This document shows, in pieces, positions 1,195 through 41,395 of a stretch of 64,000 nt of DNA (position 1 is its first letter; every line of letters begins with the position of its first letter). The stretch is from positions 3,864,226 to 3,928,225 of the forward strand of contig NZ_CM001441.1 of assembly GCF_000244895.1 (NCBI RefSeq), read 5' to 3'. The notes beneath the pieces are model-generated. The model saw nothing but the letters and a program-made list of their open reading frames with translations. It had not been told where the DNA came from and searched no databases. The translations under genes and the position numbers were made by a program. The stretch comes from Desulfosporosinus youngiae DSM 17734. GTDB taxonomy: Bacteria > Bacillota > Desulfitobacteriia > Desulfitobacteriales > Desulfitobacteriaceae.

Positions 1195-1754
1195 CAGAGC
1201 CTCTCCCCCTTCGCGACCAGTTTTTCCTTTAAAAACTTCCGGCCTCTGGAAAGCCTTTGATCCACGACATTTCTGTCCACAGAAAATGTTCTGGCGATGT
1301 TTTCGATGTCTTCGGCAAGAAAGTAACGCCGGATAAAAATCTCCCTGTCCTGGTCATTCATATCCCGGATAGCCGCCAAAAGCTCTTTCCTGGTTTCTTT
1401 GGATACCAGAATATTTTCCGGCGTAAGCTCCGCCGATAATTCCCTGTCCGTAGCCCATTCTACAGAGTCCCGCTTACTTAGCTTCCGCCGATAATCAATG
1501 GCTTTATATTTGGAGACGGCAGCAATCCAGCTTTTGAAGTTGCCTTTACTCTCGTCAAAACTTGCCATGTTGTTCCACACAGACAGGAAAACATCGTTCA
1601 GACATTCTTCAACATCAGAGTCGCCGAAGCCGGCCTGAAGCACCTTGCGTACAATACTGTAAACCAGATTCCCGTAGGTCTCCATGACAAATTCCAATGC
1701 TCTTCTGTTCTTCTTTTGCAATTGGGCTACAAAATTGGTATCATTGATCTCCAT
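1194..1754 (-). CDS. ECF RNA polymerase sigma factor
   Basis: A 186-residue sigma-70 family protein of extracytoplasmic-function size. Region 2 lies at roughly residues 15-90 (ALEFVMETYGNLVYSIVRKVL, then FLSVWNNMASFDESKGNFKSWI, the region 2.2/2.3 signature), and region 4 at about 125-180 (MNDQDREIFIRRYF and the helix-turn-helix IARTFSVDRNVVDQRLSRGR). An ATG seven codons upstream (1775) is possible, but the ATG at 1754 has AAGGTGG seven bases before it and matches the usual N-terminus length. It forms an operon with the overlapping DUF4179 partner, so release from that protein is the likely control. Its target promoters cannot be read here. Confidence 0.9.
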   Translation of the reverse strand: MEINDTNFVAQLQKKNRRALEFVMETYGNLVYSIVRKVLQAGFGDSDVEECLNDVFLSVWNNMASFDESKGNFKSWIAAVSKYKAIDYRRKLSKRDSVEWATDRELSAELTPENILVSKETRKELLAAIRDMNDQDREIFIRRYFLAEDIENIARTFSVDRNVVDQRLSRGRKFLKEKLVAKGERL

Positions 1755-1912
1755 CTTTCCGCCACCTTCATCCATTCCTTGAGAAGCTTATCACCAGCTA
1801 ATACGAAACAATTTGGACTTTCTGACATAAATATCGAATATTTCGCCTAAATTCCTGCGGATTTCTGCCTGAGGATGATTGTTCAATAATCTGATCTGAA
1901 CAATGTCAAAAG

Positions 1913-1990
1913 CCCGTTCCCGTTCCGGCCGGTCGGCTGGAGATTGCCGTATTTTTCCGTCATACTGCTAAGGCTGTTGCTCTTTAAGGA
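1913..1990 (-). pseudogene. 78-bp remnant duplicating part of the neighbouring lipoprotein gene
   Basis: This stretch is nearly identical to 2801-2878 inside the lipoprotein gene at 2545-4230 (constant offset of 888 bases, a handful of mismatches). Read on the minus strand it gives SLKSNSLSSMTEKYGNLQPTGRNG, against SLKSNSLSSMTEKYGELQPTGRNG in the intact gene. No ORF continues on either side. It shows that a second copy of the gene once lay here and was largely deleted. Confidence 0.8.
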
Positions 1991-2261
1991 CTTACGTGAA
2001 TATTACGGCTCAATTCGCTCTGGATTATTCATTACGACCAAAGTTATAAACTGACCTCCCATTAATACTAATTTTAATATTTGAATTCAAAATATCCATA
2101 TTTTGTGACCAAGACAAAAGCAGCCTTTCAGACTTACTCTGTGAGGTTTCTCCGACCACGACATTGGCAAGAAGCAAATTTATTGAATAAATATCAATCC
2201 ACACTCCCAAGTAGGGAGTGGCTATCTCAAAGTCCTCTTCCAATATCCTCATCCTGACAAT

Positions 2262-2298
2262 AAAAATGGTCTTGGACTGCTTAATGCAGCCCAAGACC
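2262..2298 (-). terminator. Rho-independent terminator
   Basis: On the minus strand GGTCTTGG-GCTGC pairs with GCAGT-CCAAGACC around a short ATTAA loop and is followed by ATTTTTATTG. It lies just past the Rpn-like fragment and would end transcripts from the two lipoprotein genes. Confidence 0.75.
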
Positions 2299-2312
2299 AC
2301 AGGCCTTCCGTC

Positions 2313-2564
2313 TTAATTCATTAATTTCCTGATTTCCTCCTCAGCCAATCCTGTAGCCTTGATCATGTCTACATCCATACCCAGCCCCAGCAAATTCTCT
2401 GCCACTTCCAGTTTGCCCTTTTCCATGCCTTCCTCCATGCCCTTTTTTATACCCTTCTCCATACCTTCTGTAGGAAGATACAGGCTTATTCCGCTGATAA
2501 AGCCTGCTCCCCGTAACAGCCGCAGGCTATGGCGCACAACGTGTTTACATCCCCGTTTCCGCAT
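2313..2564 (-). pseudogene. C-terminal fragment of an Rpn/PD-(D/E)XK nuclease-type transposase-like protein
   Basis: The readable part carries the run GMEKGIKKGMEEGMEKGKLE followed by VAENLLGLGMDVDMIKATGL and AEEEIRKLMN. That alternation of MEKG repeats and a terminal ATGLxxEEIxxL helix is the typical tail of Rpn (recombination-promoting nuclease) family proteins, which are usually about 250-300 residues long. The catalytic PD-(D/E)XK part is absent: upstream the sequence runs straight into the end of the lipoprotein gene. The first 25 or so residues of the open frame have no clear family match and may not be translated. I read this as a truncated leftover of a mobile-type gene. Confidence 0.6.
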
Positions 2565-4230
2565 CCGTCACTTCGTCAACCTTGGTGATTTTCCAGCTTC
2601 CATCCTCTTGGAGCAAAGAAAATACTACAGCATAAACCGCGGCGGAATCGCCGTCAGCGCGGAGGATCTTCTCCTGAACCCTGATGTCGGCCGTAGCTGT
2701 GCCCCCGTTAACCAGCACAATGGGATCATCAAAAACCACGGCATACTCTTTGACGCCTAGGGGGCTCCAGACCTGGAACCCGCGCCGCCAGTCATTAATC
2801 CCGTCCCCGTTCCGGCCGGTCGGCTGGAGCTCGCCGTATTTTTCCGTCATACTGCTAAGACTGTTGCTCTTTAAGGCCTGGCCATAGGTTGTGTAATAGT
2901 CCCGGACAACGGCCATGATTTGCGCTTCGGCACTGTCGGCAGCCGATTGGGGCAAGTTGTCCGGATCAATGTTTAGGACCGCATCCTCCTGCCTGATCCC
3001 CAGCCTGGTTATTTTTAAATCCGTGCCCTCGGGGAAATCGGCTTCGCCCGGTGAGGGTGTGCCGGTGTTTAAGACCAGCTCCTGATCCTGGCCGGCCGGC
3101 CCCGGCAAACTGTCTCCCCATACGGGATTGGGCCTCCTGTAATTATCGCGCTTCTGATAGAACCCGGCGTCAATGGCGCCGTCCACCAGGTTGCCTGCCC
3201 GGTCCAGGATGCGGTAACTTAGGATCCAGCACCCTTTGTCTTTGCCGCGTTTTAGAGACTTCAGCTCGATAGTGTGGTTATGGACCGGCACTTTCCGGTT
3301 GATCTCCAGTTGATCCGTGATCCCGTCTAAAAGGATGATTGCGTCGACGTTATAATCGCTGTAAAGATCAGTCAGTTTGAGCTGGAGCGTACCGGCCGTT
3401 GCTCTGTCGAAGTAAGCATGGCCGACACAGGCCTTTCCGTTCAGGGACCTTGTGTAAGAGAGAGCGGAAGCAAAAGGATAAGGCAAATGCGGCTCCAAAT
3501 TTTGACCGCCTGCAGACAGGAATAAAATCTGCGGATAGCTTTGCTGATAAGAACCGGATAACCAGCCGTGTTCGACTCCATCGTAGTCACCCGCAGCCGT
3601 CAGCCGATAGTGCAGTCCGGTTTCACTGAGCCCATTCTCCAAGGACTTGATTTCCAGACGATACCCTTTCTCCTCCAAGGCCGCAAGGTCAAGGTATTCA
3701 CTGAAGTACTTGGCGTCGGCCAGGTGAAACGGGATATCATTTAAGATTAGGTTGATATTCCCGCCATAACCCACCGGACCGCCGAAAAATTCCAGGCGTA
3801 AAGCGGCGGGAGCTTTGGCCAGGGCGTCAAAGGTCAGCAGCGCCTTACCGTCCGGCAGTTTTTGGGTAAAATCGCAGCGCCCCAGGTCCTGGTCCTGATC
3901 CCCAAAGAGATCCACGGTGAGAGAATCCATAAATCCTTGAGCTTCTCCGGCGACGGCGGCAACCAGAAAGGTGTGGGTTTTATCCAGCAATATTTTTTCG
4001 ATGGTCACTTGCGCCCCCTTGCAGTCCACCGACCGTTTGACCGCGCTAAACTGCCCTTCCTGTTCAGCCAGGGCAAACCTGTCGGCTTTCTCCTTTGGCT
4101 GAATCTGAAGGGGCTGGGCCGAACAACCGACCGTTAAAGGCAAAAAAGTCATAAGTAAACAGAGAAAGAGCATCCTTCCTCCAGCAGCCTTTTTTCCCGG
4201 CCGCGTTATAGACCGGACAATTGCGTTCAT
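2545..4230 (-). CDS. Large secreted lipoprotein of unknown function
   Basis: A 561-residue protein with a basic N-terminus, a hydrophobic stretch (MLFLCLLMTFLPLTVGC) and a lipobox with the lipidated Cys in LTVGC, so it should sit on the outer face of the membrane. The middle is beta-rich and contains tripled strand-like units; the last ~150 residues (from AQIMAVVRDYYTTYGQALK) resemble an NTF2-like fold used in many secreted proteins. ATG 4230 is preferred because GGGGAGG lies six bases upstream; the ATG at 4236 is too close to that site. No enzymatic motif was recognised. The gene follows the propeller lipoprotein at 4382-5935 in the same direction. A fragment of a second copy survives at 1913-1990. 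Confidence 0.7.
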   Translation of the reverse strand: MNAIVRSITRPGKKAAGGRMLFLCLLMTFLPLTVGCSAQPLQIQPKEKADRFALAEQEGQFSAVKRSVDCKGAQVTIEKILLDKTHTFLVAAVAGEAQGFMDSLTVDLFGDQDQDLGRCDFTQKLPDGKALLTFDALAKAPAALRLEFFGGPVGYGGNINLILNDIPFHLADAKYFSEYLDLAALEEKGYRLEIKSLENGLSETGLHYRLTAAGDYDGVEHGWLSGSYQQSYPQILFLSAGGQNLEPHLPYPFASALSYTRSLNGKACVGHAYFDRATAGTLQLKLTDLYSDYNVDAIILLDGITDQLEINRKVPVHNHTIELKSLKRGKDKGCWILSYRILDRAGNLVDGAIDAGFYQKRDNYRRPNPVWGDSLPGPAGQDQELVLNTGTPSPGEADFPEGTDLKITRLGIRQEDAVLNIDPDNLPQSAADSAEAQIMAVVRDYYTTYGQALKSNSLSSMTEKYGELQPTGRNGDGINDWRRGFQVWSPLGVKEYAVVFDDPIVLVNGGTATADIRVQEKILRADGDSAAVYAVVFSLLQEDGSWKITKVDEVTDAETGM

Positions 4231-40984: not shown

Positions 40985-41365
40985 AATAATAAAAAGAGGC
41001 ATCCCCTTTCAGAGAAGCCGCCCATGCTGCCGTTGCGGTGCCCATCAGAGGATGAAATGAGAGTACTCTCTGGTCGGGCAGCTTCGCCACATCCGCTTAC
41101 CGCAGCATTCCGAGGCTCGCCCACTCGCCGGTGCGGGAGCTACCTTCAGCGGATAAGTATTCTTTGAGGATAGCCGCTTCGGCGAAAATGTCCACCGGAC
41201 ATTTTCGTGCCAAACCTCCGGGTAATACCTGATGTGAACCCGTGGCTCCGTTTCCCCGCACCGACTTGTGGGCTTCTACCGCCTCTCCATGCAATGGGTT
41301 CGCTTCTGTGGACGAAGCTGCCCTGCTTGAGGGTCTAGGGATTCTTCTGCATGTCTTTAGGGTCT
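40985..41365 (-). ncRNA. Structured non-coding RNA, possibly HEARO/omega-type, without IscB ORF
   Basis: Between gatB and nifV lies a gene-free, GC-rich stretch whose minus strand folds into a nested series of long helices. GGGCAGCTTCG (41313-41323) pairs with 41076-41086; GAGGC (41281-41285) with 41112-41116; GCCCAC (41268-41273) with 41119-41124; CGGTGCGGG (41255-41263) with 41129-41137. Inside are hairpins 41219-41242 and 41183-41207 (11-bp stem, 3-base loop) and GCCG-AAG-CGGC at 41173-41183. A T-run near 40985 could end the RNA. The 5' part AAAGACATGCAGAA then CCTAGACCCTCAAGCAGGGC recalls, from memory, HEARO/omega RNA scaffolds. No IscB or TnpB gene is nearby. The family name is tentative; the folding is direct. 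Confidence 0.6.
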
Positions 41366-41395
41366 TTTTTCAAGGGAGAGAAGCCTCTAAAGGCG

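Follow-up and report, generated by a model that had tools for sequence, protein, structure and literature searches.

Among the small dispersed repeats of bacteria, we take ERIC to be the closest kind to the element described here. ERIC/IRU sequences are non-coding, multicopy, stem-folding and non-autonomous, as is this element, and according to the same review ERIC RNA influences mRNA stability in Yersinia (PMC2229807). GTAG REPs, which are thought to be moved by RAYTs, share with the element its many copies and a right-end hairpin with GTAG on the reverse strand; the main text of the paper on GTAG REPs and RAYTs contains no mention of Firmicutes (PMC3733652). REPs are also known targets of insertion sequences (PMC1525189). 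Bacterial stem-loop sequence families, which are repeated and can fold as RNA, are of the same kind as well; the paper on them covers a set of 40 genomes, and the string 'Desulfi' is absent from its main text (PMC2267715). HEARO (RF02033) is likewise large, structured and multicopy, with a length similar to that of the element. No description of the repeat was found among the matches listed by a search of the open-access literature.

The element lies in a stretch of 64,000 nucleotides of the Desulfosporosinus youngiae genome, hereafter the window, between gatB (domain matches PF02934 and PF02637) and a homocitrate-synthase-like gene, nifV (PF00682 and PF22617). In kind it resembles ERIC or REP, and the size and refinement of its fold set it apart. 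Its core measures about 185-250 nt, compared with 127 bp for ERIC, and unlike ERIC as reviewed it has a many-helix fold with invariant internal loops that are kept by covariation (PMC2229807). Like MITE- and ERIC-like elements, it is multicopy, non-coding and located outside genes, and its site at gatB is empty in relatives. ERIC, however, carries terminal inverted repeats and a target duplication (PMC2229807), whereas the element has no terminal inverted repeats, and a duplication is unsupported across its solo copies. Only its right-end unit is a short GTAG-tagged palindrome in many copies. In contrast to GTAG REPs, this hairpin closes a large structured cassette, and the RAYT gene of the genome lacks the flanking repeat that is usual, though not universal, for that group (PMC3733652). 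Unlike HEARO, the element has no match to the HEARO model and no linked IscB, while the true HEARO RNAs of the same taxonomic family adjoin IscB. The element and its parts have the following coordinates in the window.

41010-41370, minus strand: whole element, the stretch across which copies align; exact termini uncertain
Near 41370 (left) and near 41020-41010 (right), minus strand: ends of the element, from the alignment of copies
41075-41324, minus strand: conserved structured core, from outer helix GGGCAGCTTCG to CGAAGCTGCCC; covariation in 33 short-form relatives
41209-41246, minus strand: most conserved stretch, the inner stem and loop GCCACGGGTTCACATCAGGTATTACCCGGAGGTTTGGC; nearly invariant in alignment A2
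41144-41208, minus strand: optional module of about 65 nt, with hairpin CGAAAATGTCC/GGACATTTTCG; missing in short-form copies
41022-41054, minus strand: right-end hairpin unit CATCCTCTGATGGGCACCGCAACGGCAGCATGG; right-end motif search of the genome
41377-41388, minus strand: 5' arm of the gatB terminator, parted from its partner by the element; intact hairpins in relatives and fold of the joined flanks
40991-41009, minus strand: 3' arm of the gatB terminator with its T-run (40991-40995); loci of relatives, fold of the joined flanks, and sequence
41011-41019 and again 41377-41385, minus strand: GGCTTCTCT, possible 9-nt target duplication of the window copy; sequence

At the left end most copies read CYCTGA, then AAAAAGACCC. 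At the right end, GGCTAC comes after a hairpin; the window copy has GGCTTC instead. Against the covariance model of the core, the window copy (locus L232) scores 151 bits. The optional module was delimited from alignment A1, in which the remaining rows show 65 columns of gaps and the coordinates of the window copy are wrong, together with the length classes of the copies; it may be a separate nested repeat. The region had been described as used by no ORF; among ORFs no shorter than 60 aa, two (65 and 66 aa) do overlap the element, but nothing favours either as a gene.

Covariation and strand asymmetry of the fold

The minus strand of the element has a folding energy of -157.5 kcal/mol, compared with -130.1 (s.d. 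5.7) in 100 shuffled sequences, which corresponds to a z-score of -4.8. Together with the covariation, this bears out the first-pass annotation of a large structured element on the minus strand, where the 5' motifs quoted in that annotation are all present. From its series of nested helices of 11, 5, 6 and 9 bp, the outer helix of 11 bp is recovered, and the predicted fold contains further nested helices and an inner hairpin. As a whole, the core is a long hairpin of many helices whose inner loop hardly varies, and the inner stem and loop are recognisable also in other genera.

Conservation of the fold was assessed on alignment A2. From a pool of 141 cores of any length, counted with duplicate records, 66 were short cores of less than 200 nt, and 33 of these were hand-picked for diversity, with the window copy left out. 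The 33 cores have 50 pairs in nine helices, and 95.1% of the pair cells are standard. Covariation in related genomes is strong and lies above controls, as in a conserved structured RNA. More specifically, 108 cells carry two-sided changes, compared with 33.0 +/- 4.5 in 500 shuffles, and the number falls to 3-18 when the partners are slid by 1-3 columns. Such changes are seen at 20 of the 50 pairs. In the best helix, between columns 62-71 and 123-131, each of six pairs has 6-13 two-sided changes. The same holds for relatives from other genera, with 168 two-sided changes against 50.7, in an alignment that was fitted to the model. The helices are not due to chance, and the fold is under selection. 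A candidate pseudoknot within the core, GUGAACC/GGUUCAC, was rejected because covariation is absent there.

The helix cells of the 33 cores contain 75 G-U and 12 A-C combinations, or 42 and 12 after removal of two wobble-rich pairs, a count to be read with caution, as the sense strand is the one on which the helices were chosen. Furthermore, the sense strand is more stable than the antisense strand in 32 of the 33 cores. The excess of G-U over A-C and the stability of the sense strand point to this one strand as the folded one, either as RNA or as single-stranded DNA.

Copies, insertion sites and distribution

The element had been taken for an orphan, perhaps a stand-alone or stranded guide RNA; instead, it is one of at least 84 copies in its own genome, where a look for further copies had been advised. 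A DNA search of the 5,660,978 bases (one contig), with 40 of 118 candidates scored, returned at least 77 matching pieces. The 79 stretches around the matches yielded 74 near-full copies, or 75 with that of the window, a near-full copy being a profile match over more than 200 of 385 positions. Nine further places outside the fetched stretches, found in a later covariance-model search, bring the minimum to 84. The right-end hairpin motif has 104 matches in the genome, compared with 0 for a reversed control pattern.

The copies fall into a short form with a core of about 183 nt, a long form with the extra module of about 65 nt, to which the window copy belongs, and other variants. By eye, short derivatives retain the left end and the right-end hairpin without the core, and both tandem and nested arrangements occur. 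One copy, at L086, harbours an IS110-family element (positions 1241-3177; DEDD transposase of 459 aa, PF01548 and PF02371) in its inner loop, between CACATCAG and GGTATTACC. At L107 and L115, short scar-like sequences resembling the right junction of IS110 (ACTTATCTTACAAGG and TTACAAGG) lie at the same place. A second repeat family, family B, has the same ends as the main element. At L014, L017, L025, L034 and L035 it is found upstream of the main element, with its core opposite in orientation to its ends. In all 11 loci searched, this core gives a model match of 19-65 bits, on the opposite strand from the main element. Up to 45 bits are reached even by the antisense strand of the main core, since the long stem is nearly symmetric, and weak matches, including the lower ones of family B, therefore mean little alone.

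No ORF of 100 aa spans any of the 74 copies, whose orientation to genes is mixed. Where such an ORF is present on both sides (36 copies), 9 copies lie in convergent gaps, 1 in a divergent gap and 26 in codirectional gaps, the latter holding the element in either orientation. As this analysis is blind to genes broken by the element, the flanks were additionally joined, with 60 codons required on both sides. An ORF crossed the junction in 3 of the 63 loci with long enough flanks, which does not exceed the 4-6 seen with shuffled flanks and thus gives no sign of interrupted genes.

Empty sites sought by flank comparison were too diverged in sequence to fix the termini, and the gatB locus proved the better case. 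The gatB gene was matched in 28 of the 29 genus genomes searched, and only in D. youngiae does the element model match next to it; the other 27 of 27 genomes have no model match at gatB, and plain terminators are visible in several. By eye, an intact terminator-like hairpin stands at the equivalent position in L233-L235 and L239. When the flanks in the window are joined, they form one hairpin, AGAGGC-T-TCTCT-GAAA-GGGGA-T-GCCTCT, followed by T, with an energy of -15.9 kcal/mol. Because the joined flanks rebuild the same kind of hairpin as in the relatives, we conclude that the element split the gatB terminator. The T-run at 40991-40995, previously assigned to the end of the structure, consequently lies outside the element and belongs to this terminator. 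A module-like sequence (ACGAAAGTGTCC..GGACACTTTCG..) was observed just downstream of gatB in L257, in another palindromic context and with no model match there, and L258 carries the start of something similar.

The sequence GGCTTCTCT (9 nt) flanks the window copy on both sides. The flanks of solo copies (n = 26) are no more alike than shuffled ones (p = 0.59). The 22 tandem copies show a weak likeness of flanks (p = 0.004 with no shift, 0.02 with shift), and all 50 copies together give p = 0.10; two of 52 rows with too short a right flank were left out. Terminal inverted repeats were absent from 52 copies, in which the longest inverted match averaged 4.75 nt compared with 4.49 nt after shuffling. 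Orientation relative to replication, for 100 of the 104 right-end matches in 77 clusters and with origin and terminus assumed, revealed no significant bias (p = 0.10-0.25). In five species (L125, L128, L129, L153 and L193), the element occupies the same place at the 3' end of a lipoprotein gene. The right flanks there are 93-96% identical and the elements only 69-94%; the lower likeness of the elements suggests that replacement or gene conversion between dispersed copies may occur besides insertion.

The core covariance model R1 has matches in 47 of 82 genomes of the class, which we take to be Desulfitobacteriia, and in 9 of 398 genomes of the phylum, eight of them within the class and one marginal (E = 9.6e-4). 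Counts from both searches are lower bounds, as at most 32 candidates per genome were scored in the class search and at most 6 in the phylum search. A conserved 23-base pattern was found at 73 loci in genome contigs, 60 of which are from Desulfosporosinus and 11 from Gracilibacter (5), Paradesulfitobacterium (3) and one Clostridiales MAG (3); the remaining two, L132 and L141, were set aside by eye as chance. Desulfosporosinus loci have flanks identical to records of D. nitroreducens, D. hippei, D. acididurans, D. lacus and D. fructosivorans. The plasmid, phage and viral contig collections searched gave no match to the element. Copy counts vary from 0 in some genomes of the genus to more than 80 in D. 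youngiae. The repeat has spread through Desulfosporosinus and relatives, and is wide in the class and rare in the phylum.

Candidate partners and competing explanations

The first-pass annotation had compared the element with the HEARO/omega RNAs that guide IscB, and had proposed a trans-acting partner of an IscB elsewhere in the genome. In the window no Rfam family reaches its threshold, and up to E = 10 the region of the element matches only MIR5225 (E = 3.7) and the serC leader (E = 9), at chance level and with neither score anywhere near its cut-off. The HEARO model, whose use had been recommended, has no match in the window even at E = 10. It also has 0 matches in the whole D. youngiae genome, where the control genomes of the same search were equally silent, and a separate positive control was therefore made. 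HEARO was recovered at full length in 4 of 4 IscB-type loci tested, at 118-155 bits against a cut-off of 83; the four were taken from 14 RRXRR places in the same taxonomic family. Family relatives at L216, L217, L218 and L219 have RRXRR (IscB/IsrB-type) genes together with HEARO RNA and provide a ready comparison set.

As had been stated, no IscB lies near the element. The RRXRR domain, the N-terminus of IscB/IsrB, has 0 matches in the D. youngiae genome in a search that finds it in relatives. It is present in 7 of 45 family genomes, in which the element counts are at least 0, 0, 1, 2, 5, 8 and 27, and absent from 8 of the 9 family genomes with at least 20 element matches. We therefore reject membership in HEARO, given the missing model match, the positive controls and the missing link to iscB or isrB, and likewise an IscB acting in trans, given that the own genome and most copy-rich genomes are without RRXRR. 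A HEARO/omega guide RNA, stand-alone or working in trans with an IscB or IsrB elsewhere, would account for a large, structured, multicopy element in a family that does possess RRXRR proteins, but with true HEARO at the IscB-type loci of that family and this distribution of RRXRR, we consider it of negligible probability.

Among the 19 recurrent protein clusters listed from 73 named loci, no transposase was recognised beside the copies (by eye, first 150 residues); of the four largest clusters, three are translations of the repeat and one is an ABC-type ATPase. The RAYT-like protein of the genome (L079) reaches 65.1 bits where NCBIfam requires 80, and neither a fuzzy search nor reading of the sequence found a right-end unit flanking its gene. 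RAYT relatives are present in 29 of 45 family genomes and in 6 of the 9 copy-rich ones (at least 20 matches), G003, G043 and G046 being without; conversely, G004, G016 and G023 have a RAYT relative and no element matches. The RAYT at L079 is thus not supported as the mobiliser, being unflanked by the unit and having relatives that track copy number poorly. Neither IscB-type genes nor RAYT relatives track copy number well. The genome further contains three Y1 transposase matches and two TnpB matches; by eye, the surroundings of the IS200 transposase (L078) and the right end of the one IS605/TnpB element read (L080) are unlike the element, and both were dismissed. IS200/IS605 transposases act on single-stranded hairpin ends.

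On balance, we find it fairly probable that the element is a mobile repeat scattered through the genomes of Desulfosporosinus and relatives, non-coding and non-autonomous, and that it would be mobilised in trans. A trans-supplied mobilising enzyme would recognise the folded single strand, as RNA or as single-stranded DNA; if the enzyme recognises the folded strand, selection for spreading would maintain the fold. The copy behind gatB would then need no host role beyond disturbing the gatB terminator. The copies are many, none lies in an open ORF, the insertion into the gatB terminator is unique among the genus genomes examined, and compensatory change is evident. Against the mobile repeat stand the lack of a mobiliser among the proteins found, the unflanked RAYT gene, the want of support for target duplication in solo copies, the absence of terminal inverted repeats, the non-significant replication bias, and the sign of replacement or conversion at the five-species site. 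A bolder, rather unlikely version is that a new class of large structured RNA, transcribed but non-coding and with its inner loop invariant, is the mobile agent itself, bound by a trans-acting enzyme, and has colonised the class, with up to at least 80 copies per genome, nested and tandem arrangements, and a role as landing site for IS110. An unlikely alternative is that a RAYT or an IS200/IS605 transposase, acting on single-stranded hairpins, moves the element as a GTAG-type REP cassette: the right end, in reverse complement, reads GTAG, spacer and hairpin, GTAG being the tag of these REPs (PMC3733652), terminal inverted repeats are missing as this would have it, and both Y1 transposases in the genome and RAYT relatives in most copy-rich genomes are at hand. 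The absence of a flanking unit at the RAYT gene, the genomes in which RAYT relatives and copies part company in both directions, and the lack of a significant strand bias argue against such a cassette.

We give slightly less weight to a SINE-like retro-element, whose folded transcript would be copied to DNA by a resident reverse transcriptase. The strand asymmetry of the conserved fold is consistent with it, as are copies that, by eye, have a common right end and shortened left parts; internal deletions that keep both ends are seen by the same means and speak against it. Improbable, too, is an RNA that would serve a different nuclease or recombinase (TnpB, IS110 type or other) in trans as guide or cofactor. 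The inner loop and the internal-loop motifs, invariant across the class, resemble a protein-binding RNA, and the TnpB matches and the IS110 element in the inner loop of one copy would fit, yet by eye the right end of the one TnpB element read and the IS200 surroundings do not look like the element. We rate equally low an element useful to the host, as an ERIC-like determinant of mRNA stability or a spare terminator. Such a role would suit copies that no ORF spans, that lie in convergent far more often than in divergent gaps (9 and 1 of 36) and one of which, in the window, sits in a terminator, but it accords poorly with the inconstant orientation to genes, with the absence of a model match at gatB from all 27 other genus genomes, and with counts that range so widely within the genus.

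Meaning for small bacterial repeats

The element represents a structured family that goes unmatched in Rfam 15, and it cautions that being large, structured and without a gene does not in itself make an RNA a guide RNA. Small bacterial repeats are usually regarded as simple palindromes, whereas this one has a many-helix fold that is kept class-wide; so elaborate and evolutionarily preserved a fold is unusual for such a repeat. From the class-wide compensatory change it follows that the folded strand has some activity, most likely a part in spreading the repeat. With a defined RNA or DNA bait with which to fish for the enzyme, how such repeats move becomes testable.
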